Shown one piece after another: positions 28,815 to 36,482 of a stretch of 42,290 bases of DNA. The notes under the pieces were generated by a model. That model did not search any database. It had not been told where the DNA came from and saw only the letters and a program-made list of their open reading frames with translations. The position numbers and the translations under genes were made by a program. Source of the stretch: Phycisphaerae bacterium (GTDB lineage Bacteria > Planctomycetota > Phycisphaerae > Phycisphaerales > SM1A02). Numbering within the stretch: the first letter of the stretch is position 1; each line of letters begins with the position of its first letter. Where the stretch lies: assembly GCA_016873275.1 (NCBI GenBank), contig VGXO01000022.1, positions 1-42,290 on the forward strand, read 5' to 3'.

Positions 28815-30131
28815 CTAGGAGGCTCTCGGGATCGGTCGACCCTGCGGATCGAGGCTCGCCCCGGCGGGATCGGGCGGCTCGATGCCGAGCGACCGCAGGT
28901 GCTCGAGCACCATCGCGGTGTCGTGGACGTGGTCCGCGCGGAGCCCGAGGTCCTCGACGAGGTAGCGCTCCCACAGGCGATGGCTGCGGACGAGGCGCCG
29001 CCCCTCCTCGAGTCCGCGCGGCGTGAGGGCGCCCTCGCCCGCCGACCACCACCCTCTCCGCGCGCCGTGGGCTTCCGCCGCTCGACCCAGTCCCGGATCG
29101 AGCGACGGCGGCTCCGGGCGATCACGGCGGGCGCGACGGGCGAGCTCCTCGACCCGCCAGCGCCAGCCGAGGAGGTCCTCCGCCGCGGTCTGCACCGCGA
29201 CCTGCCGCCGCCGCCGAAGCCGAACGAGGATCCCGTGCTCGGGCGCCACGAGCGCCGCGATCGCGAGCATCGCGCCGAGCAGCGTCGCCATGCTGCCCGC
29301 CGAGGAGAGCGACTCGCCGCCGAGCGCCTCGGGCAGCACCGCGCCGAGGAGATGCCCGCCGATCGCGCCGAGGACGCCGATCGCCGCCGCCAGCACGACC
29401 TGCGTCGCGAGCCGGTCGGTCAGGAGCCTCGCCGCCGCCGCCGGCACGACGAGGAGCGCGACGACGAGCACCGTCCCCACCGCCTCGAAGGACGCGACCA
29501 CCGCCGCCGCGGTCGCGGTCGAGAGCCCCGCGTGGACGAGCGCCGGGCGGCGACCCGCGACCTGCATGAACTCCGGGTCGAAGGTCGCGGCGCGGAGCTC
29601 CTTGAAGAGCGCCGCCGCCGCGAGCACCACGAGGAGCGCGACGACGAGGAGCACGAGGAACGCGCGGGGAAGCGCCGCGAGCGACTCGAGCGAGAGGAGC
29701 GGACGATCGACCGGCGGGATCCAGAAGAGCGACTCGAGCGAGCCGGAGATGACGCAGTCGGGGTCGAGGTCCACCGCGCGGGCGCCGGAGCCCTCGAGGA
29801 GCAGGATGCCCGCGGCGAGGAAGGCGGTGAAGGTCGCGCCCATCGCGGCCTGCGGCTCGACGCCGCCTTGCCGAAGCCACGCGATCGCTCCGACCGCGAG
29901 GAGGGCGCTCGCCGCCGCGCCCGCGAACATCGCGCCGCCCGCGAGCCCGCCGCTCAGGAGGAGCCCGATCACGAGTCCAGGGAGCACCGCATGGGCGATC
30001 GAGTCGCCGAGGAGCCCCTCGCGCCGCAGGAGGAGGAACGTCCCCGGCACGGCGCAGGCGACCGCGGCGAGCGAGGCGGTCGCGATCGGGACGAGGTCGA
30101 GGGTCAGGAACTCGCCGAGCGGACCGGTCAT
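28815..30131 (-). CDS. Metal (Mn/Zn/Fe) ABC transporter permease 2 with C-terminal DtxR-like domain
   Basis: Inner-membrane subunit of a TroCD/MntCD/YtgCD-type importer, 438 residues. About eight membrane segments occupy residues ~10-300, starting GTFLLLRREGLLGDSIAHAVLPGLV (split at GLLGDS), the family's hallmark. The cytoplasmic C-terminal ~120 residues resemble the DtxR/MntR dimerisation domain: LVRSHRLWERYLVEDLGL, then HVHDTAMVLEHL. The His and Glu-His of MntR-type metal sites are kept, but the position matching B. subtilis MntR Glu99 appears to be Met. A recognisable winged helix is weak here. The ATG overlaps the stop of permease 1 (ATGA). It is last in the operon. Confidence 0.88.
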   Translation of the reverse strand: MTGPLGEFLTLDLVPIATASLAAVACAVPGTFLLLRREGLLGDSIAHAVLPGLVIGLLLSGGLAGGAMFAGAAASALLAVGAIAWLRQGGVEPQAAMGATFTAFLAAGILLLEGSGARAVDLDPDCVISGSLESLFWIPPVDRPLLSLESLAALPRAFLVLLVVALLVVLAAAALFKELRAATFDPEFMQVAGRRPALVHAGLSTATAAAVVASFEAVGTVLVVALLVVPAAAARLLTDRLATQVVLAAAIGVLGAIGGHLLGAVLPEALGGESLSSAGSMATLLGAMLAIAALVAPEHGILVRLRRRRQVAVQTAAEDLLGWRWRVEELARRARRDRPEPPSLDPGLGRAAEAHGARRGWWSAGEGALTPRGLEEGRRLVRSHRLWERYLVEDLGLRADHVHDTAMVLEHLRSLGIEPPDPAGASLDPQGRPIPRAS

Positions 30132-31444
30132 GATCGACCCCCGTCCGACGCGACCTCCTCGCCGAGCGACCGCTCGAGCTCGCGGACGATCTCGGGCGCG
30201 AGGAGGTGCTCGACCCGCTCCGCCGTCAGGTCGACATGGCTCGGCGCGACCTCGGCGAAGCGGACGAGATACGCCTTCCACAGGCGGTGGTTGCGCCGCA
30301 CCGCGAGCCCCCTCGCAAGCCCGCGTGGGGTCGGTCGGAGCGCGGTCGAGGGTCCCGCGACGAGTCCCTCCATCCGCGCCGCACGCAGGACGAGCGCGGC
30401 GGTCGCGCCCCCCCACCCCCGCTCGCGGGCGATCGAGGCGAGCGGCCAGCCGCGGTCATCCCGCTCGCTCAGCGCCTCGACGAGGTGATCGACCGCGATC
30501 CGCCGACGCAGCGAGATCCGCGTCGCCGCCGTCGCCAGCACGCCGCGCCGAGGCGCGAGGAGGGCGCTCGCGACGAGGATCGACGCGGCGACGAGGACGA
30601 TCATCGGTCCCGTCGGAAGCCGCGGCGCCGAGGCGGAGATCGCCGAGCCGATCCAGCCGCTCGCGCCGCCCACGAGCGCCGCGATCGGGACCATGCGTCC
30701 GATGCGGTCGCTCCAGAATCCCGCCGCCGCGGGCGGGATCACGAGGAGCCCGACCACGAGCAGCATGCCGACCGAGCCGAGCCCGGCGAGCACGACGAGA
30801 AGGATCAGCCCGAGCAGGATGGCATCGACCGCGCCAAGCGGACGACCGATGACCCGCCCGAACTCCTCGTCGAAGCAGAGGAGCCGCAGCTCCTTGAGGA
30901 GGAGGACCGCCGCGAGGACCGCGATCCCGGCGACGACCGCGAGGAGGACCACGTCCCCCGGGAGCATCGTCGCGGCGGCGCCGAAGATCGAGTCCTCGAG
31001 ACCCGCCGCCTCGCCGCGGGGATGCCGCGCGACGACGCCGAGGAGCACCATGCCGGCGCCGAAGAAGACCGAGAGCACCGTGCCGATCGCGGCGTCCTCG
31101 CCGAGCCGCGTCGCGCGGACGATCGCGCGGATCGCCAGGACGCCGAGCGCCGCGGCGAGCCCCGCGCCGAGGAGGAGTCCCGGCGACCATCGCCCCTCGA
31201 TGCCGAGCCAGCCCATCACGAGGAACGCCCCCGCGAGTCCCGGCAGCGTCGCGTGCGCCGCGGCGTCGGCGAGGAGCGCCCGGCGCCGCAGCAGCCCGAA
31301 GGTGCCGACCACCCCCGCCGCGATCCCGAGGAGCGTGGTGCCGAGGACCACGGTCGTCGCGTGGAACCCGCCCGAGAGGAGGAGCGCATCGAGGAGCCGC
31401 ACGCCCGCCGGCGCCTCCTCGACCGCCGCGAGGATCGCGATCAC
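30128..31444 (-). CDS. Metal (Mn/Zn/Fe) ABC transporter permease 1 with C-terminal DtxR-like domain
   Basis: A paralogue of the next gene, also 438 residues. The permease part (~20-305) has VGTFGLLRRRALLADAAAHATLPGLAG split as in the family (LLADAAAHA), and EDAAIGTVLSVFFGAG. The cytoplasmic tail is a fuller DtxR/MntR-like unit: a winged-helix-like stretch (about 312-370, ASIARERGWGGATAALVLRAARMEGLV) followed by VRRNHRLWKAYLVRFAEV and TAERVEHLL, where His, Glu and Glu-His match MntR metal ligands. The start is the GTG at 31444, overlapping the ATPase stop (GTGA). The following ATG overlaps its own stop. In chlamydial YtgC a similar tail is released as the repressor YtgR. Confidence 0.88.
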   Translation of the reverse strand: MIAILAAVEEAPAGVRLLDALLLSGGFHATTVVLGTTLLGIAAGVVGTFGLLRRRALLADAAAHATLPGLAGAFLVMGWLGIEGRWSPGLLLGAGLAAALGVLAIRAIVRATRLGEDAAIGTVLSVFFGAGMVLLGVVARHPRGEAAGLEDSIFGAAATMLPGDVVLLAVVAGIAVLAAVLLLKELRLLCFDEEFGRVIGRPLGAVDAILLGLILLVVLAGLGSVGMLLVVGLLVIPPAAAGFWSDRIGRMVPIAALVGGASGWIGSAISASAPRLPTGPMIVLVAASILVASALLAPRRGVLATAATRISLRRRIAVDHLVEALSERDDRGWPLASIARERGWGGATAALVLRAARMEGLVAGPSTALRPTPRGLARGLAVRRNHRLWKAYLVRFAEVAPSHVDLTAERVEHLLAPEIVRELERSLGEEVASDGGRS

Positions 31445-32256
31445 CGCAGTCCCCCCTCCGCCCGCGCGATCGCCTGACCCGCGGAGTCGAGGAGCGTCAG
31501 GCGACCGCCGAAGGTTCGCTCGAGGTTCGCCGGCGTGAACGCCTGCGCGATCGGTCCCGCCGCGACCACCCGCATGTTGACGAGGAGGACCGAGTCGAAG
31601 TGCTCGCGGACGGTCGCGAGGTCGTGATGGACGCAGAGCACCGTGCCTCCGCGGGCGCGGATCGAGGCGAGGAGCTCGACGATCACCCGCGCCGTCGCGG
31701 CGTCCACCCCGGCGAAGGGCTCGTCCATCAGGGAGAGCTCCGCCTCCTGGGCGAGCGCCCGCGCGATGAAGACCCGCTGCTGCTGCCCGCCGGAGAGCCG
31801 CCCGATCGGACGGTGGGCGAGCTCCGCGAGCCCGACTCGCTCGAGGCATGCCATCGCCACCGCGCGGTCCGCGCGACCGACGCGGCGGAGGAGCCCAAGC
31901 GACGGATACCGCCCCATGCACGCGACCTCGAGGGCGGTGATCGGAAACTCCCAGTCGACGCTCTCCCGCTGCGGCACGTAGGCGACCCGGCGCCGCTGCT
32001 CGCGGTAGGGTCGCCCCCAGAACTCGACGGTGCCGCTCGCCCGCGGCAGCAGGTCCACGCACGCCTTGAGGAGCGTGCTCTTCCCGGCGCCGTTGGGTCC
32101 GACGATCGCGACGAGCGAGCCGATCGGCGCATCGAAGTCGATGTCCCAGAGCACCGGCTTCCGCCGGTACGCGACGGTCATCGCGTGGATCGAGAGCGGG
32201 CTCGCGGGCGAGTGCTCGGGACGGTCGCGGAGGCGGCTCGAGGGATGCTCGCTCAT
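31441..32256 (-). CDS. Metal (Mn/Zn/Fe) ABC transporter ATP-binding protein
   Basis: Cytoplasmic ATPase of the cation importer, 271 residues. Walker A is GPNGAGKST (about 53-61), the Q-loop lies in YVPQRESVDWEFP, characteristic of the MntB/TroB/YtgB group. The signature is LSGGQQQRVFIARAL, Walker B with switch is LSLMDEPFAGVD and the H-loop is VHHDL. The first ~20 residues are a Ser/Pro-rich extension. The ATG at 32256 overlaps the stop of the binding-protein gene by 4 nt, and its own stop overlaps the permease 1 GTG. Confidence 0.94.
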   Translation of the reverse strand: MSEHPSSRLRDRPEHSPASPLSIHAMTVAYRRKPVLWDIDFDAPIGSLVAIVGPNGAGKSTLLKACVDLLPRASGTVEFWGRPYREQRRRVAYVPQRESVDWEFPITALEVACMGRYPSLGLLRRVGRADRAVAMACLERVGLAELAHRPIGRLSGGQQQRVFIARALAQEAELSLMDEPFAGVDAATARVIVELLASIRARGGTVLCVHHDLATVREHFDSVLLVNMRVVAAGPIAQAFTPANLERTFGGRLTLLDSAGQAIARAEGGLR

Positions 32257-33257
32257 CGCGGCGCCTCCGCCTCGAGGATCGCCGCGTCGCCGCCGAGCCC
32301 CTCGACGACGACCCGCAGGTCGTGGCGGATCATGCCGAGCACCGTGTCCGCGCCTCGACCGGCAGGACCGAGCGCATCGGCATGCAGCGTCCCGCCGAGC
32401 GAGGCGCTCCCGCCCCGCGCCCGCACCCCCGCGAGCATCGCCTCGACCGCCCGCGGCGAGATCGTGCTCTCGAGGAAGACCGCGGGCACGCGGCGCTCGA
32501 CGAGCACCTCGACGAGGCGCTCGAGGTCGGCGATCCCCGCCTCCGAGGCGGTCGAGAGCCCCTGCAGCGCCATGACCTCGAGACCGAAGGATCGTCCGAA
32601 GTAGCCGAAGGCGTCGTGGGCGGTGACCACGAGCCGCTGCGGCATCGGGATCGTCGCGACCGCGGCGAGACCCTCGGCGTGGAGCGCCTCGAGCCCGCGG
32701 GCGGTCGTCTCCGCCCGCCCCCGGAACTCGTCGGCGCCCGCGGGATCGAGCCCCGCGAGGCGATCGCCGAGACCGCGGGCGGTGGTCGCCCAGAGGAGCG
32801 GATCCATCCAGAGATGCGGATCCGCCACCTCCGGCGCCGCCGGATCGCGCCGCAGGCTCTCGGAGGGCACGAGGTCGCCGAGCCACCACACCCTTCGCCC
32901 CGACTCCTCGAGGCGGCGGAGCACCGGCGCGAGCCGCGCCTCGAGGCCGAGCCCGTGCGCGATCACGAGGTCCGCCCGGAGCATGCGACGGAGGTCGGAG
33001 CGGCCGGGGCGATGAAGATGGGGATCGACCCCCTCGCCCATCAACGCGATCACCTCGAGGCGGTCGCCGCCGACCTGCCGGAGGAGGTCCGCCGCCATGC
33101 CGGTCGTGACGACGACCCGGACCTTCGTCGCGAGTTCCGGCGGCGGGGCATCGAGCGTCGCGGCACCCGCCGTCGTCTCCCCCGCGGCGATCAGCAGGAC
33201 CAGCCCGCCGATCGCGCGAAGCACTCGACGTCGAAGGCAGTCGATCGGGACCTGCAC
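32253..33257 (-). CDS. Metal ABC transporter substrate-binding protein, TroA-like
   Basis: Periplasmic metal-binding protein, 334 residues. A signal peptide (RRRVLRAIGGLVLLIAAGETTAGAA, split at the hydrophobic core) precedes a cluster A-I fold. Likely metal ligands are the His in GEGVDPHLHRP, the His in VADPHLWMDP, the His in VTAHDAFGYFGRSFGLE and an Asp near LHADALGP. A third-ligand His is the TroA/ZnuA form, whereas manganese-specific PsaA-type proteins have Glu there. The protein alone thus suggests zinc or mixed specificity, while the adjacent mntR suggests manganese. The GTG at 33257 is chosen because it places the signal peptide at the N-terminus and lies 41 nt after a TACATT box. Confidence 0.92.
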   Translation of the reverse strand: MQVPIDCLRRRVLRAIGGLVLLIAAGETTAGAATLDAPPPELATKVRVVVTTGMAADLLRQVGGDRLEVIALMGEGVDPHLHRPGRSDLRRMLRADLVIAHGLGLEARLAPVLRRLEESGRRVWWLGDLVPSESLRRDPAAPEVADPHLWMDPLLWATTARGLGDRLAGLDPAGADEFRGRAETTARGLEALHAEGLAAVATIPMPQRLVVTAHDAFGYFGRSFGLEVMALQGLSTASEAGIADLERLVEVLVERRVPAVFLESTISPRAVEAMLAGVRARGGSASLGGTLHADALGPAGRGADTVLGMIRHDLRVVVEGLGGDAAILEAEAPR

Positions 33258-33298
33258 GGCGGCTCCGGGACGCCCGCCGGGGTCGGCGGGACCGCCCA

Positions 33299-33315
33299 AA
33301 TGTAGCCTCGGCTAC
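33299..33315 (-). promoter_or_regulatory. Probable MntR operator overlapping the -10 box of the transporter genes
   Basis: GTAGCCGAGGCTAC (33302-33315 on the minus strand) is a perfect palindrome with a 2-nt centre. It overlaps TACATT (33299-33304), a -10-like box 41 nt before the GTG of the binding-protein gene. The TAG inside the palindrome is also the mntR stop codon. DtxR/MntR-family operators are similar palindromes, so repression by promoter occlusion is the natural reading. Confidence 0.55.
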
Positions 33316-33785
33316 TTCCGGAGTCGACCCGGGCGGGATCCCCCCGCGAACGCCTCCATCAGACGGAGGGTCCGCGGACCCACGTGATGCTCGATCCCCT
33401 CCGCCTCGCGGTCGGCGGTGCGGTCGTCGAGCCCCAGCGCAAGGAGGAAGGACTTCACGATCTCATGCCGCCGCGCCGAGGCGCGGGCGAGACGCCCTCC
33501 CGCCGGGGTCAGCCGGACCGGTTGCCCCCGCGAGGTCGTCACCAGCCCGAGCCGCGCGAGCCGGGCGATCGTCTTCACCACGGTGACGTGGCTGACCCCG
33601 AAGCGGCGGGCAAGGTCCGTCACCCGCGCCTCCCCCTGCGACGCGGCGATCTCGGCGATCGCCTCGCAGTAGTCCTCCGCGACCTCGTCGGCGTGGTCCG
33701 CGCGGACCTGACGATGCCGCAGCGGCGCGCGGACCTCGCCGCGGCTCGGGGAGGAGGGCGAGGACGTGGCGCGTCGACGGTCCAT
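33312..33785 (-). CDS. mntR: Manganese-responsive DtxR-family regulator MntR
   Basis: A 157-residue metal-dependent repressor. Residues ~35-90 form a winged helix with VTDLARRFGVSHVTVVKTIARL. The C-terminal dimerisation/metal domain has RRHEIVKSFLLALGLDD and REAEGIEHHVG. Asp and Glu of AEDYCE, His of RRHE and Glu/Glu-His of EGIEHH fit the metal ligands of B. subtilis MntR (Asp8, Glu11, His77, Glu99, Glu102, His103). There is no SH3-like third domain, as in MntR rather than DtxR/IdeR. The overall sequence resembles the enterobacterial MntR form with its N-terminal extension. The gene leads the transporter operon and ends inside the putative operator. Confidence 0.9.
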   Translation of the reverse strand: MDRRRATSSPSSPSRGEVRAPLRHRQVRADHADEVAEDYCEAIAEIAASQGEARVTDLARRFGVSHVTVVKTIARLARLGLVTTSRGQPVRLTPAGGRLARASARRHEIVKSFLLALGLDDRTADREAEGIEHHVGPRTLRLMEAFAGGSRPGRLRK

Positions 33786-33844: not shown

Positions 33845-33874
33845 ACCGGGCGAGGTCGCGAGACCTCGCCCGGT
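33845..33874 (-). terminator. Strong hairpin downstream of the 33935-34741 gene
   Basis: ACCGGGCGAGGTC (33845-33857) and GACCTCGCCCGGT (33862-33874) form a perfect 13-bp stem with a GCGA loop (plus strand). It lies between the mntR promoter and the 3' end of the dockerin-like gene. There is no T-run, so the terminator call rests on stem strength and position. Confidence 0.6.
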
Positions 33875-33934: not shown

Positions 33935-34741
33935 TCACGGGCACTCGTATCCCCACGCGCCAAGCAGGATCGAGAGGTCGCGCCCATCGACGTTCCCCGA
34001 CCCGTCGAGATCCCCCGCCGGATCGTCGGTGCCCCACATCGAGAGGAGCGCCGAGAGGTCGTCGCCGCCGACCGTCCCGCCGCCGGCGACATCGAGGTCG
34101 CAGGCGAGGAGCCAGCGTGCCTGTCGCTCGGCGAGCTCGTGGTCCTCCTCGGAGAGCCCGAGGTTGAAGACGACGTAGCACGGCTCGCTCGGCGCGCGGA
34201 ACGGCGACTCGCCCACGAACGCGAGCTGCAGCACGTAGATTCCCTCGATCGGATCGGTGCCGCCCGGACCAATCAGCGTGTAATCGAAGTGGTCATGCAG
34301 GCTGCCGTCCGGCTCGGTGCCGAAGGCGAATCCCGGCGCCGGTCCGTCGCCCGAGGTCGCCTCGGCGGGACCGAAGCCAAGCTGCATCGCGTCGCCCGCC
34401 ACGAGGAACCCCGCCCCGTCCCAACGAAGCACCGGTCCGGTGAAGGCGAACGCGAACGTCGCGCCGATCGTCTGCTTCGACGCGAGGATCTGGAATCCGG
34501 GCTCGACCGCGGAGAAGGGAAACGCCGGGTCCTCGCCGAGCTCGGCGCCGAAGACCCGCTCCTCCTCGGAGACCGGCTCGCCGGGATCTCCCTCGGTGAT
34601 CGACCCCGTCACGATCCGGTCCTCCACGATCCGGACCCAGAGGTCGAGGTGCGGCTCCTTCTTCCCGTCGGCGAGAAGGCTGGCGGAGAGGGACGCCGCG
34701 GCGGACGCCGCGAGCACGACTTGCCAAGACGAACGAATCAT
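33935..34741 (-). CDS. Secreted protein with C-terminal dockerin-like module
   Basis: A 268-residue exported protein of unknown function. The signal peptide is about 22 residues (VVLAASAAASLSASLLA). The body is beta-rich: DLWVRIVEDRIVTGSITEG, then FHFDYT-like HDHFDYTLIGPGG and IYVLQLAF. The C-terminal ~60 residues are two Ca-binding-type repeats, CDLDVAGGGTVGGDDLSALLSMWG and GDLDGSGNVDGRDLSILLGAWG, each described here only in part. It is a paralogue of the next gene: both share the order of a 'vxGx(I/F)' start, an ExxFGAxxGxxP-like middle, an (H)xHxxxT(L) strand and a 'GIYV' strand. An AAGGAA ribosome-binding site precedes the ATG at 34741. Confidence 0.82.
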   Translation of the reverse strand: MIRSSWQVVLAASAAASLSASLLADGKKEPHLDLWVRIVEDRIVTGSITEGDPGEPVSEEERVFGAELGEDPAFPFSAVEPGFQILASKQTIGATFAFAFTGPVLRWDGAGFLVAGDAMQLGFGPAEATSGDGPAPGFAFGTEPDGSLHDHFDYTLIGPGGTDPIEGIYVLQLAFVGESPFRAPSEPCYVVFNLGLSEEDHELAERQARWLLACDLDVAGGGTVGGDDLSALLSMWGTDDPAGDLDGSGNVDGRDLSILLGAWGYECP

Positions 34742-34772
34742 GCACGATTCCTTGTCGCCCCGAGGGCGGATG

Positions 34773-34791
34773 GACGCGGAGACGCCGCGTC
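34773..34791 (-). terminator. Hairpin between the two dockerin-like genes
   Basis: GACGCGG (34773-34779) and CCGCGTC (34785-34791) with a 5-nt loop; a second smaller CGCCC/GGGCG hairpin lies just beside it. It could end the upstream transcript or limit read-through. Confidence 0.4.
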
Positions 34792-34836
34792 GGGTTGGGT
34801 TCAGGCACTCACGCGAAGTCAGGCAAGGACGTGGAG

Positions 34837-35673
34837 TCACGGTCCGCACGCCCCGCCCCATGACGAGAGGAGCACCGCGAGATCGCTGCCCCCGACGACG
34901 CCGTCGCCGTCGAGGTCAGGCGAGGGACCGCCCCAGCCGGCGAGCAGCACCGCGAGGTCCCCGCCGCCGACGACGCCGTCGCCGTCGAGGTCGCCGGGAC
35001 AGGGCGGCACGAGAAGGTGCTCGGCGATCCACTCGATCGCCTGCTGCCGCGCGAGCGAGCCGGCGCCGAAGTCGAACGCGATGAAGAACGGCTCGCTCCG
35101 CTCGACCGAGGGATCGGTCGAGTACATCTCGAGCTCGATCACGTAGATCCCCGCGGGCGGCGCCGGGACGCCCACGCCCTCGAGCGTGAAGTTCAGATGA
35201 CGGTGGAAGCCGCCGTTCGACTGGACCGCGAGGTCGAAGCCGGCGAGGGGCTCCGAGGCGATCGTTCGGGAGAGCGTGAGGAAGGAGACGACGAGCTGCG
35301 CATCCGGCGCCGGGGCGAGACCGTCGCCGACGAAGCGGCGAAGACCCGCGAGGGCGTCGAAGCCGACCCGCGTGCCCGGCGCGAAGGTGCCGGGCAGCGC
35401 GTCGAAGCCGGGATTCGCGGTGAAGCCCGCGAAGCCGCTGTCCCCGAAGGTGCCTCCGAAGACGCGTTCGGGGACGACCTCGCCGGAGCCGGGGGAGAAG
35501 ATCCCCGTCTCGATCGCCCCCTTCGGCACCGCGAGGACGATGTCGCCTTGATGGAGCTGCGCGGAGGCGACGGAGGTCGCGGCGACCAGGATCGCGGCGG
35601 TCGCCGCCGTTCGGAGACGAGAGGTCGTGCCAGGCGAGGAAGGTGTTCCGAGGATTCCGTGATCGCGGTTCAT
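34837..35673 (-). CDS. Secreted protein with C-terminal dockerin-like module, paralogue of the next gene downstream
   Basis: A 278-residue exported protein of unknown function. The signal peptide is long (about 40 residues; hydrophobic core TAATAAILVAATSVASA) and ends before QLHQGDIVLAVPKG. The body contains ERVFGGTFGDSGFAGFTANPGF, a region with HRHLNFTLEGVG and GIYVIELEMYS. It ends with two repeats: GDLDGDGVVGGGDLAVLLAGWG and PDLDGDGVVGGSDLAVLLSSWG (each partly quoted). The Asp pattern fits EF-hand-like Ca binding. The ATG at 35673 overlaps the stop of the pseudopilin gene (ATGA), so the two are translationally coupled. Confidence 0.83.
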   Translation of the reverse strand: MNRDHGILGTPSSPGTTSRLRTAATAAILVAATSVASAQLHQGDIVLAVPKGAIETGIFSPGSGEVVPERVFGGTFGDSGFAGFTANPGFDALPGTFAPGTRVGFDALAGLRRFVGDGLAPAPDAQLVVSFLTLSRTIASEPLAGFDLAVQSNGGFHRHLNFTLEGVGVPAPPAGIYVIELEMYSTDPSVERSEPFFIAFDFGAGSLARQQAIEWIAEHLLVPPCPGDLDGDGVVGGGDLAVLLAGWGGPSPDLDGDGVVGGSDLAVLLSSWGGACGP

Positions 35674-36482
35674 GGCTGGGGGTTCTCCGGCGGCGCCGCG
35701 ACGAGGAGGTCGAAGGCGCCGCTGCACGAGGGATCGAAGCGGTTGAGGTCGGCGTCCCGGTAGACCGCGGCGAAGGAGAGCGTCGCGACGTGCCCGTCGA
35801 GGAAGGCGTAGTTGCTGCGGGCGCCAGGGCTCGCGGGCGATCCGCCGACGAGGGCGGTCGCGCACTGCCCCGAGGCGACCGCGGGCGCCTGCTCGGCGGA
35901 GCCCCACTCCTCGACGTGCACGTGGTCCGCGGCGGCGAACTCGCCCGACTCCGCCATCAGCAGGAAGTGGACGGTGCCCGCGGGCGCCGGCACGAGCGAG
36001 AGGCGGTCGGTGATGCGCGCCGGATCGATCGCGCCCCACGGCGAGAACTCGCGGCAGAGATGGTTGTTGAGCCCGTAGCTCGTGAGCCGGTAGCGGTTGC
36101 CGGGGAGCGGCTCGCCCTCCTCCTTCCAGTGGCGGCTACGGTCGAGCGGCGAGCGGAGCGCGAGCGGCGAGCCCGCGTAGTCGGCGAGCGTCGTCACGAA
36201 GGACGCCTCGCCATCGAGCGGAATCGAGCCGTGCGGAAGGCGGGCATCGACGAAGAGCCCGCGGTGGTCGGTCGCATAGTTCGCGGAGGCGATCGCGAGC
36301 TGCCGGAGGTTCGCGAGGTCCGCGGTCGCCTTCGCGGCGCGACGCACGGGAGCGATGGCGGTCGAGACGAGTCCGACGAGCACCGCGACCACCGCGAGGA
36401 CGACGAGGAGCTCGACGAGCGAGAAGCCTCGGGCACGCCTCGACGTTCGAGGCGAGAAGAAACGGGGGGATGAAGGCGCCAT
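35670..36482 (-). CDS. Type II secretion-like pseudopilin of the planctomycete DUF1559-related type
   Basis: A 270-residue protein with a class III signal: basic leader, then RGFSLVELLVVLAVVAVLVG (about 18-37), with Gly-Phe cleavage and Glu at mature position 5 as required by prepilin peptidase. The rest has RRAAKATADLANLRQL, the standard helical extension, then LTSYGLNNHLC and FLDGHVATLSFA near the C-terminus, matching the late H-x-x-DG-like motif of planctomycete pseudopilins with the order DGH. It may be part of an extracellular fibre or secretion apparatus; no assembly genes are near. AGGAG repeats precede the ATG at 36482. Confidence 0.87.
   Translation of the reverse strand: MAPSSPRFFSPRTSRRARGFSLVELLVVLAVVAVLVGLVSTAIAPVRRAAKATADLANLRQLAIASANYATDHRGLFVDARLPHGSIPLDGEASFVTTLADYAGSPLALRSPLDRSRHWKEEGEPLPGNRYRLTSYGLNNHLCREFSPWGAIDPARITDRLSLVPAPAGTVHFLLMAESGEFAAADHVHVEEWGSAEQAPAVASGQCATALVGGSPASPGARSNYAFLDGHVATLSFAAVYRDADLNRFDPSCSGAFDLLVAAPPENPQP

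Follow-up and report, generated by a model that had tools for sequence, protein, structure and literature searches.

Organization of the metal-import operon

The sequence analyzed here, referred to below as the window, is a 42,290-nt stretch of a Phycisphaerae bacterium genome (contig VGXO01000022.1). Our subject is the metal-import operon on its minus strand (28815-33785), in which a free MntR regulator is accompanied by two permeases that both end in a DtxR/MntR-like domain. The gene order proposed in a first-pass annotation of the sequence was borne out: mntR is followed by the genes of a metal-binding protein, an ATP-binding cassette (ABC) ATPase, permease 1 and permease 2, with 4-nt overlaps from the binding-protein gene onward. 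The operon comprises the following features:

33312..33785, minus strand: mntR, free MntR of 157 aa, E. coli MntR subfamily, with all six MntR metal ligands (PF02742 and PF01325, NF008273, PDB 2h09)
33302..33315, strand not assigned: putative MntR operator, palindrome GTAGC-N4-GCTAC, the only exact match in the genome
32253..33257, minus strand: ZnuA/TroA-type metal-binding protein (PF01297, 202 bits; GTG start assumed, TTG at 33299 possible)
31441..32256, minus strand: ABC ATPase (PF00005, 98.6 bits; best NCBIfam model MntA)
30128..31444, minus strand: permease 1, ABC-3 membrane domain (residues ~27-297) and predicted DtxR/MntR-like tail (~310-438) (PF00950, PF02742, AlphaFold model)
28815..30131, minus strand: permease 2, ABC-3 membrane domain and predicted DtxR-like tail (~311-438), with Met407 at ligand position 99 (PF00950, PF02742, AlphaFold model)

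The PF01297, PF00005 and PF00950 matches all lie above their cut-offs, so that the components of an ABC-3 importer with a ZnuA-type binding protein are present. The Pfam family PF02742 (Fe_dep_repr_C, cut-off 27 bits) was matched by MntR (41.7 bits), permease 1 (44.0 bits) and permease 2 (48.0 bits) and by no other protein of the whole 3.23-Mb genome; PF01325, the winged helix-turn-helix family, was matched in MntR only and in neither permease. MntR possesses the full ligand set (D38, E41, H107, E129, E132 and H133, at an offset of 30 to B. subtilis MntR numbering in a gap-free alignment). The doubled domain thus coexists with a separate, complete MntR, as had been noted earlier.

MntR passes the NCBIfam MntR equivalog model NF008273 narrowly (154.6 bits vs. 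a cut-off of 153), and its best PDB match is E. coli MntR (2h09, 98.4 bits). Since the free regulator matches both, we infer that manganese is the transported metal. As for the transporter proteins, MntA is the top NCBIfam model of the ATPase (226.6 bits vs. a cut-off of 400), and the AztC and MntC scores of the binding protein both stay below their cut-offs. Among the matches listed, no NCBIfam transporter model reached its cut-off, and the Azt zinc models scored about equal to the manganese models. Promoter and terminator scans found none.

Predicted fold of the permease tails

The two permeases were modelled as single chains with AlphaFold2 from alignments of 43 rows for permease 1 and 45 rows for permease 2, in which 42 and 44 of the 49 + 49 references were used; the reference lists left out L039 (unread letters), incomplete membrane domains and tails of <100 or >180 residues. 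The permease 2 model (m6cda49f77f95) has a mean predicted local distance difference test (pLDDT) score of 92.3. That of permease 1 (me7145c1bb412) averages 89.9 and falls to 51-77 in residues 391-438, and these low-confidence last 48 residues hold ligand positions 99-103. The membrane parts match PsaBC (7kyp) with Z scores of 33.1 for permease 1 and 30.3 for permease 2.

In the predicted models, residues 304-430 of tail 1 superimpose on 2h09 (Z 13.1, root-mean-square deviation 3.0, 123 residues aligned) and residues 316-438 of tail 2 on 5zr6 (Z 14.1, root-mean-square deviation 2.3, 114 residues aligned). Both tails match DtxR, MntR and IdeR over the winged-helix and the metal/dimer domains, with Z scores, among the matches listed, of 11.4-13.1 for tail 1 and 10.6-14.1 for tail 2. 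The second helix of the helix-turn-helix (HTH) is present in the model of tail 1 (335-342) and missing from that of tail 2, where a loop joins helices 301-332 and 346-358. The two-domain DtxR/MntR fold of both tails is thus confirmed by prediction, and together with the PF02742 matches above cut-off it upholds the earlier proposal that both permeases end in such a domain. A chance or artefactual origin of the tails can be dismissed, since the domains score above the Pfam cut-offs and recur across genomes.

Potential metal ligands of the tails

Ligand positions 8, 77, 99, 102 and 103 (B. subtilis MntR numbering) were counted over 60 tail-1 and 55 tail-2 rows, the latter including four half-tails; the duplicates L044 and L045 and tails of ≤80 residues, two half-tails among them, were left out. 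Judged from their residues, both window tails carry potential ligands at all five positions: H320 (8), H386 (77), E409 (99), E412 (102) and H413 (103) in permease 1, and D319 (8), H384 (77), E388, H403, M407 (99), E410 (102) and H411 (103) in permease 2. The claim that most MntR ligands are kept therefore stands, with changes at position 8 of tail 1 (His) and position 99 of tail 2 (Met); the latter residue, suspected before, is real and common to 20/55 tail-2 rows. In addition, K390 of permease 1 occupies a site where 54/60 tail-1 rows have Glu.

Across the rows, His at position 77 (56/60 in tail 1, 50/55 in tail 2), Glu at 102 (57/60 and 51/55) and His at 103 (59/60 and 55/55) prevail in both paralogues. 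Position 8 is His in 39/60 tail-1 rows and Asp in 47/55 tail-2 rows, and position 98 is Asp in 45/60 and His in 50/55, respectively. Position 99 is Asp in 42/60 tail-1 rows; in tail 2, it is Glu (21/55) or Met.

Conservation of the HTH/wing and metal/dimer halves

Conservation was determined in a main set of 16 operons that contain a short MntR along with two tailed permeases, as mean pairwise identity with a 95% bootstrap interval and with each group aligned alone; the recognition helix of each tail was located by eye from the window sequences. In MntR, the HTH and wing reach 0.55 (0.49-0.61), the recognition helix 0.64 and the metal/dimer half 0.51. The corresponding values are 0.26 (0.22-0.31), 0.27 and 0.54 for tail 1, and 0.24 (0.20-0.29), 0.19 and 0.49 for tail 2. 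Sequence-specific repression by the tails would require constraint on their DNA-reading helix comparable to that on the helix of MntR; in these 16 loci such constraint is absent, and the conserved DNA-recognition helix that marks a transcriptional repressor was found in neither tail. Misalignment does not account for the low HTH conservation, as the contrast stays when each group is aligned separately. In a second set of 11 loci with another regulator (mostly long DtxR), tail 1 shows this contrast again: HTH and metal half reach 0.28 and 0.45 in tail 1, and 0.46 and 0.54 in the regulator.

The junction between membrane domain and tail is, in turn, nearly invariant. The Pro at the end of the membrane domain and ligand position 8 are 22 residues apart in 86/88 rows of both paralogues (permease 1: 22 in 41/43 and 21 in 2; permease 2: 22 in 45/45), and a count by eye gave 22 in two single-permease sequences as well (L097 and L104). 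The segment is modelled with high confidence as a short turn and a helix, and its near-invariant length gives no sign of a loose linker. The length from position 8 to position 77 is 58-89 residues in tail 1 and 54-80 in tail 2, a spread of up to 31 residues, vs. 69 in 24/25 short MntRs and 68-72 in 35/42 other rows. Constancy is seen in the rigid link to the metal site and not in the HTH length.

These data bear on the role of the tails. One or both might be released by cleavage and serve, beside MntR, as additional metal-dependent repressors of this operon or of others, as in Chlamydia, where YtgR is cut from YtgC and operator-dependent repression by the C-terminal 139 residues is described (PMC5599777, PMC6504234, PMC7755916). 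The two-domain DtxR fold retained in our models would suit such a role. Yet we consider it unlikely, given that the recognition-helix conservation gone from both tails is kept by the MntR of the same operons, that the spacing of the ligands around the HTH varies in the tails far beyond that of the free regulators, and that the junction is short, near-invariant and confidently modelled. That the tails bind DNA uncleaved at the membrane, or are weak non-specific DNA binders, seems very improbable to us. A YtgC review suggests that uncleaved YtgC might repress (PMC5599777), and several tail-1 HTH regions look arginine-rich (by eye, uncounted); against this stand the same loss of recognition-helix conservation and an operator pattern that is independent of the tails (see below).

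Alternatively, the tails could be metal chaperone or storage sites that take metal from the pore and pass it to MntR or other proteins, or only buffer it. The conservation of ligands without that of DNA contacts fits this idea, as do the different ligand sets of the two paralogous sites, where position 8 is mostly occupied by His in tail 1 and by Asp in tail 2. It would leave unexplained the fixed spacer to the membrane domain, the retained dimer-type half and the occurrence of the same domain on ABC ATPases, and we rate it as slightly less probable still than a cleaved repressor.

Putative operators follow the free regulator

The operator candidate at 33302-33315 overlaps the mntR stop codon and lies ~45 nt before the GTG start of the binding-protein gene. 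Its pattern, GTAGC-N4-GCTAC (palindrome A), has one exact site genome-wide, found on both strands, compared with 26 per strand for the reversed control pattern, and recurs at other operons with a short MntR. Palindrome B stands for TTTTGA-N4-TCAAAA or GTTTGA-N4-TCAAAC. Both were found by scanning and counted later, which makes the following count post hoc: 63 binding-protein loci, after two duplicates were dropped, were searched over 300 bp each with ≤2 mismatches. Among 21 loci near a short MntR, 13 carry palindrome A, none B and 8 neither. The 19 loci near a long DtxR have no palindrome A, 11 B and 8 neither, and the 23 loci without a regulator found nearby 8 A, 6 B and 9 neither. Two sequence motifs served to type the regulators; among the 19 'long' ones, L054 is a contig-end fragment typed long by default. 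Operator type and regulator type are associated (Fisher p = 4e-7, short-MntR vs. long-DtxR loci), a value that overstates the certainty, since the species are related and hence not independent and the motifs were picked with the data already in view.

Palindrome A occurs 22 times in 18,900 upstream bases vs. 47 times in all 800,101 bases of the loci. Several short-MntR loci without it before the binding-protein gene carry it before mntR (e.g., L039, L050, L056, L059, L062). The longer form TGTAGC-N4-GCTACA has 12 sites in the 41 genomes considered in the next section, vs. 47 for the reversed control (table summed by hand); the window's own palindrome lacks the first T and is not among them. 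Nine of the 12 lie within ~310 bp of the PF02742 match of a free regulator, read as a short MntR in eight cases and of unread type in one (G022); the other three are found elsewhere (G011, ~1.2 kb away; G024:C13; G034:2904824).

The two operons of this set that lack tails keep their operators (L078 palindrome A, L077 palindrome B). The type of the putative operator thus appears to follow the free regulator and not the tails, which favours a role of the tails other than repression. For cleaved tails acting as repressors, it is a further difficulty that the MntR-type palindrome is single in the genome, though a different site for the tails is possible. As a separate observation, the putative operators of Planctomycetota mnt operons fall into two classes (TGTAGC-N4-GCTACA, TTTTGA-N4-TCAAAA) according to the type of regulator, which makes them usable for regulon prediction.

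Distribution and phylogeny of the tails

The distribution of the tails was determined in 41 genomes, the present one and those of 40 relatives. The pairs were tallied by eye from tables (G018 and G031 from tables alone), leaving out the split or truncated loci of G002, G005 and G010 and the single-permease G033. Of 29 assembled two-permease operons, 22 have both tails, although in one of these (G024) the permease-2 tail stays below the Pfam cut-off. Permease 1 alone is tailed in 2/29 (G017, G037), permease 2 alone in 1/29 (G021), and no tail is present in 4/29 (G003, G018, G019, G031). Outside assembled pairs, 19/20 complete ABC-3 permeases of these genomes have no PF02742 match, the exception being the single tailed permease of G033, which stands alone beside metal-binding protein and ATPase genes.

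In a phylum sample of 148 genomes, 90 contain PF02742. Both tails occur in other families of the phylum (e.g., L088-L094, L102, L116, L124), single-permease systems with a longer tail were found at L097, L104, L105, L111, L114 and L115, and at L042 and L043 only permease 2 is tailed; these further loci carry no frequency information because they were chosen by a match to the domain or to permease 2. The doubled fusion is thus common within the order, and it is met again in other parts of the phylum Planctomycetota. An operon with MntR and both tails was also seen on a contig labelled Bdellovibrionales (L035), representing either horizontal transfer or a misbinned contig.

The pair counts are relevant to a reading of the tails as assembly or stability modules that join two different permeases, with the metal having a structural role. 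The dimer-type half is conserved as in MntR and both partners are tailed in most pairs, as this would predict; yet in the three pairs with one tail and the four with none both permeases persist, and we regard such a role as improbable.

A domain tree was computed without rows of <90 residues and the four half-tails; it is midpoint-rooted and its bootstrap is not fully settled. It places 45/53 tail-1 rows in one group (support 99/99), 49/51 tail-2 rows in another (98/95), and all 25 short MntRs with 28/29 other free regulators in a third (53 rows, 100/97). Recent copying of MntR onto the permeases is not supported by this midpoint-rooted tree, as tails and free regulators form separate supported groups.

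A proposed metal sensor fixed to the transporter

We propose that the importer, a manganese-type (possibly Mn/Fe) ABC system, is controlled at two levels, transcription and activity. Metal-loaded free MntR would bind the single GTAGC-N4-GCTAC before the binding-protein gene and repress the transporter genes. Permeases 1 and 2 would pair as membrane subunits, each carrying its cytosolic DtxR/MntR-like domain on a short turn and helix of fixed length. Cytosolic metal filling the tail sites would make the tails change shape or pair, by which the transporter would be held closed (trans-inhibition); the tails themselves would not be DNA-binding repressors. We put the probability that the tails are transport-gating sensors on the importer, with the free MntR controlling the genes, at roughly 60%. 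Through its tails the pump would probably sense internal metal and shut itself down.

The first-pass annotation had left two options, gating of transport and a multi-layer repressor system. The former is favoured because the metal half is conserved like that of MntR and the DNA helix is not, because the spacing to the membrane domain is near-invariant, and because the operators follow the free regulator; the latter is less supported. Fusion of the same domain to ABC ATPases (L108, L121, L123) and to the permeases of single-permease systems (e.g., L104) also speaks for gating, as do the separate tail groups of the domain tree and the absence of a PF02742 match from 19/20 complete ABC-3 permeases outside assembled pairs; MetNI and ModABC offer a precedent. 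We suggest tentatively, as a possible but rather doubtful extension, that the two tails, each with its own ligand set, combine into a single heterodimeric MntR-like module beneath the transporter, which would close on filling with cytosolic Mn, so that one fold would serve the control of both synthesis and activity.

Several observations weigh against gating. YtgR is an example of such a tail acting as a repressor, and in MetNI and ModABC the regulatory domain sits on the ATPase (PMC10710835), here on the permeases. In the second set of 11 loci, the contrast in tail 2 is weaker (HTH 0.27 vs. metal half 0.33). Neither palindrome was seen upstream of the binding-protein gene in 16/40 loci with a neighbouring regulator, and the main tail groups of the tree leave out eight tail-1 and two tail-2 rows. 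One or both tails are missing in 7/29 assembled pairs, and at six phylum loci permease 2 keeps an HTH-like part without the metal half; two full tails are for these reasons not obligatory. Finally, an R-[S/G/T]-W motif is present in 33/60 tail-1 rows, 4/55 tail-2 rows and 0/67 free regulators. In the alignment it forms the start of the third HTH helix, and because tail 1 has this motif of its own, part of its HTH region has some function, probably an additional contact gained there.

With a separate MntR beside the tailed permeases, the operon parts the two roles, regulation of genes and of transport, and so makes them testable apart. Should the majority of these tails gate transport, direct feedback on activity would be a trait of an entire class of metal importers, with YtgR as a special case.

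Related domain architectures and neighbouring genes

The scanned loci also revealed partial tails and fusions of the domain to other proteins:

L098:4744-5922, L099:4626-5801, L100:1515-2744, L101:5194-6384, L109:4374-5552, L112:5584-8052: permease-2 half-tails (winged-helix-like part, no metal half; FGW motif in 4/6)
L121:4465-5568 (plus strand), L123:5238-6344 (minus strand), L108:5942-7843 (minus strand): ABC ATPases (LolD/MacB-like, read by eye) with a C-terminal Fe_dep_repr_C
L052:2747-3793, L061:6119-7588, L065:4667-5818, L066:6601-7689, L107:3743-5431, L122:5301-6338: Fe_dep_repr_C with FeoA domain(s), DNA-binding part weak or unrecognised

The three ATPases have Cys at the position of DtxR C102 and a CPHG...CC ending, and thus represent the same sensor domain on another transporter type. 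The six proteins with FeoA domains might be a parallel case linked to ferrous iron uptake.

In the window, a perfect inverted repeat lies between mntR and the next upstream gene (33846-33873; 12-base arms CCGGGCGAGGTC, 4-base loop); it has no T run and is perhaps the end of the upstream transcript. The adjoining proteins at 33935-34861 and 34837-36039 (minus strand) end in dockerin-like DxDGxG/V repeats, as read by eye, and the former has no Pfam match.

Comparison with known systems

The first-pass annotation suspected the arrangement with two tailed paralogues to be under-described. It is not rare, given its frequency among the pairs and its recurrence in the phylum; as regards publications, a literature search conducted mostly without subscription journals found no description of the doubled arrangement or of DtxR domains as transport gates. 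To our knowledge, neither the permeases of Treponema TroABCDR nor YtgD of Chlamydia carry a tail. The regulatory domains of MetNI and ModABC are not known to have DtxR-like folds.

Compared with E. coli MntR, whose equivalog model and structure it matches, the window MntR shows no important difference. Treponema TroABCDR likewise combines a metal ABC importer with a DtxR-type regulator in one operon (PMC2628430). The manganese importers PsaBC and MntBC share the fold of the membrane domain; they differ in being homodimeric (PMC11779740), and their solved permease chains, with 258-290 residues, leave no room for such a tail. In MetNI and ModABC, binding of the substrate to cytosolic tail domains shuts the importer (PMC10710835). 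By analogy, the mode proposed here would be the same, with cytosolic tail domains binding the transported substrate and blocking the cycle. In PgMntR of Porphyromonas, which has twin FeoA domains, a DtxR-type protein is joined to a transport-related domain as well; unlike the tails, it is a predicted free repressor.

The closest relative is Chlamydia YtgCR, to which the first-pass annotation had also pointed and which we compared by description only. The ytgABCD-encoded YtgC (CT069) has one C-terminal DtxR-like tail, YtgR, which is cleaved and represses (PMC5599777, PMC7755916, PMC6504234); both protease and stimulus are called unknown in the review (PMC5599777). It is the one studied permease-DtxR case that we found, and it is read as a cleaved repressor. 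The likeness holds: in both cases, a metal-import operon encodes an ABC-3 permease that ends in a DtxR-like domain. The regulatory parallel holds less well: in Chlamydia, YtgR is the sole iron-dependent regulator identified, according to PMC6504234, whereas in the window operon the fusion is found on both permeases, next to a complete MntR that has a likely operator, and the DNA-reading helix of the tails is unconserved. Permease-DtxR fusions orthologous to YtgCR have been reported in 11 phyla (Thompson et al., 2012, as told in PMC5599777). The arrangement is a variant of this known single fusion, widespread in Planctomycetota.

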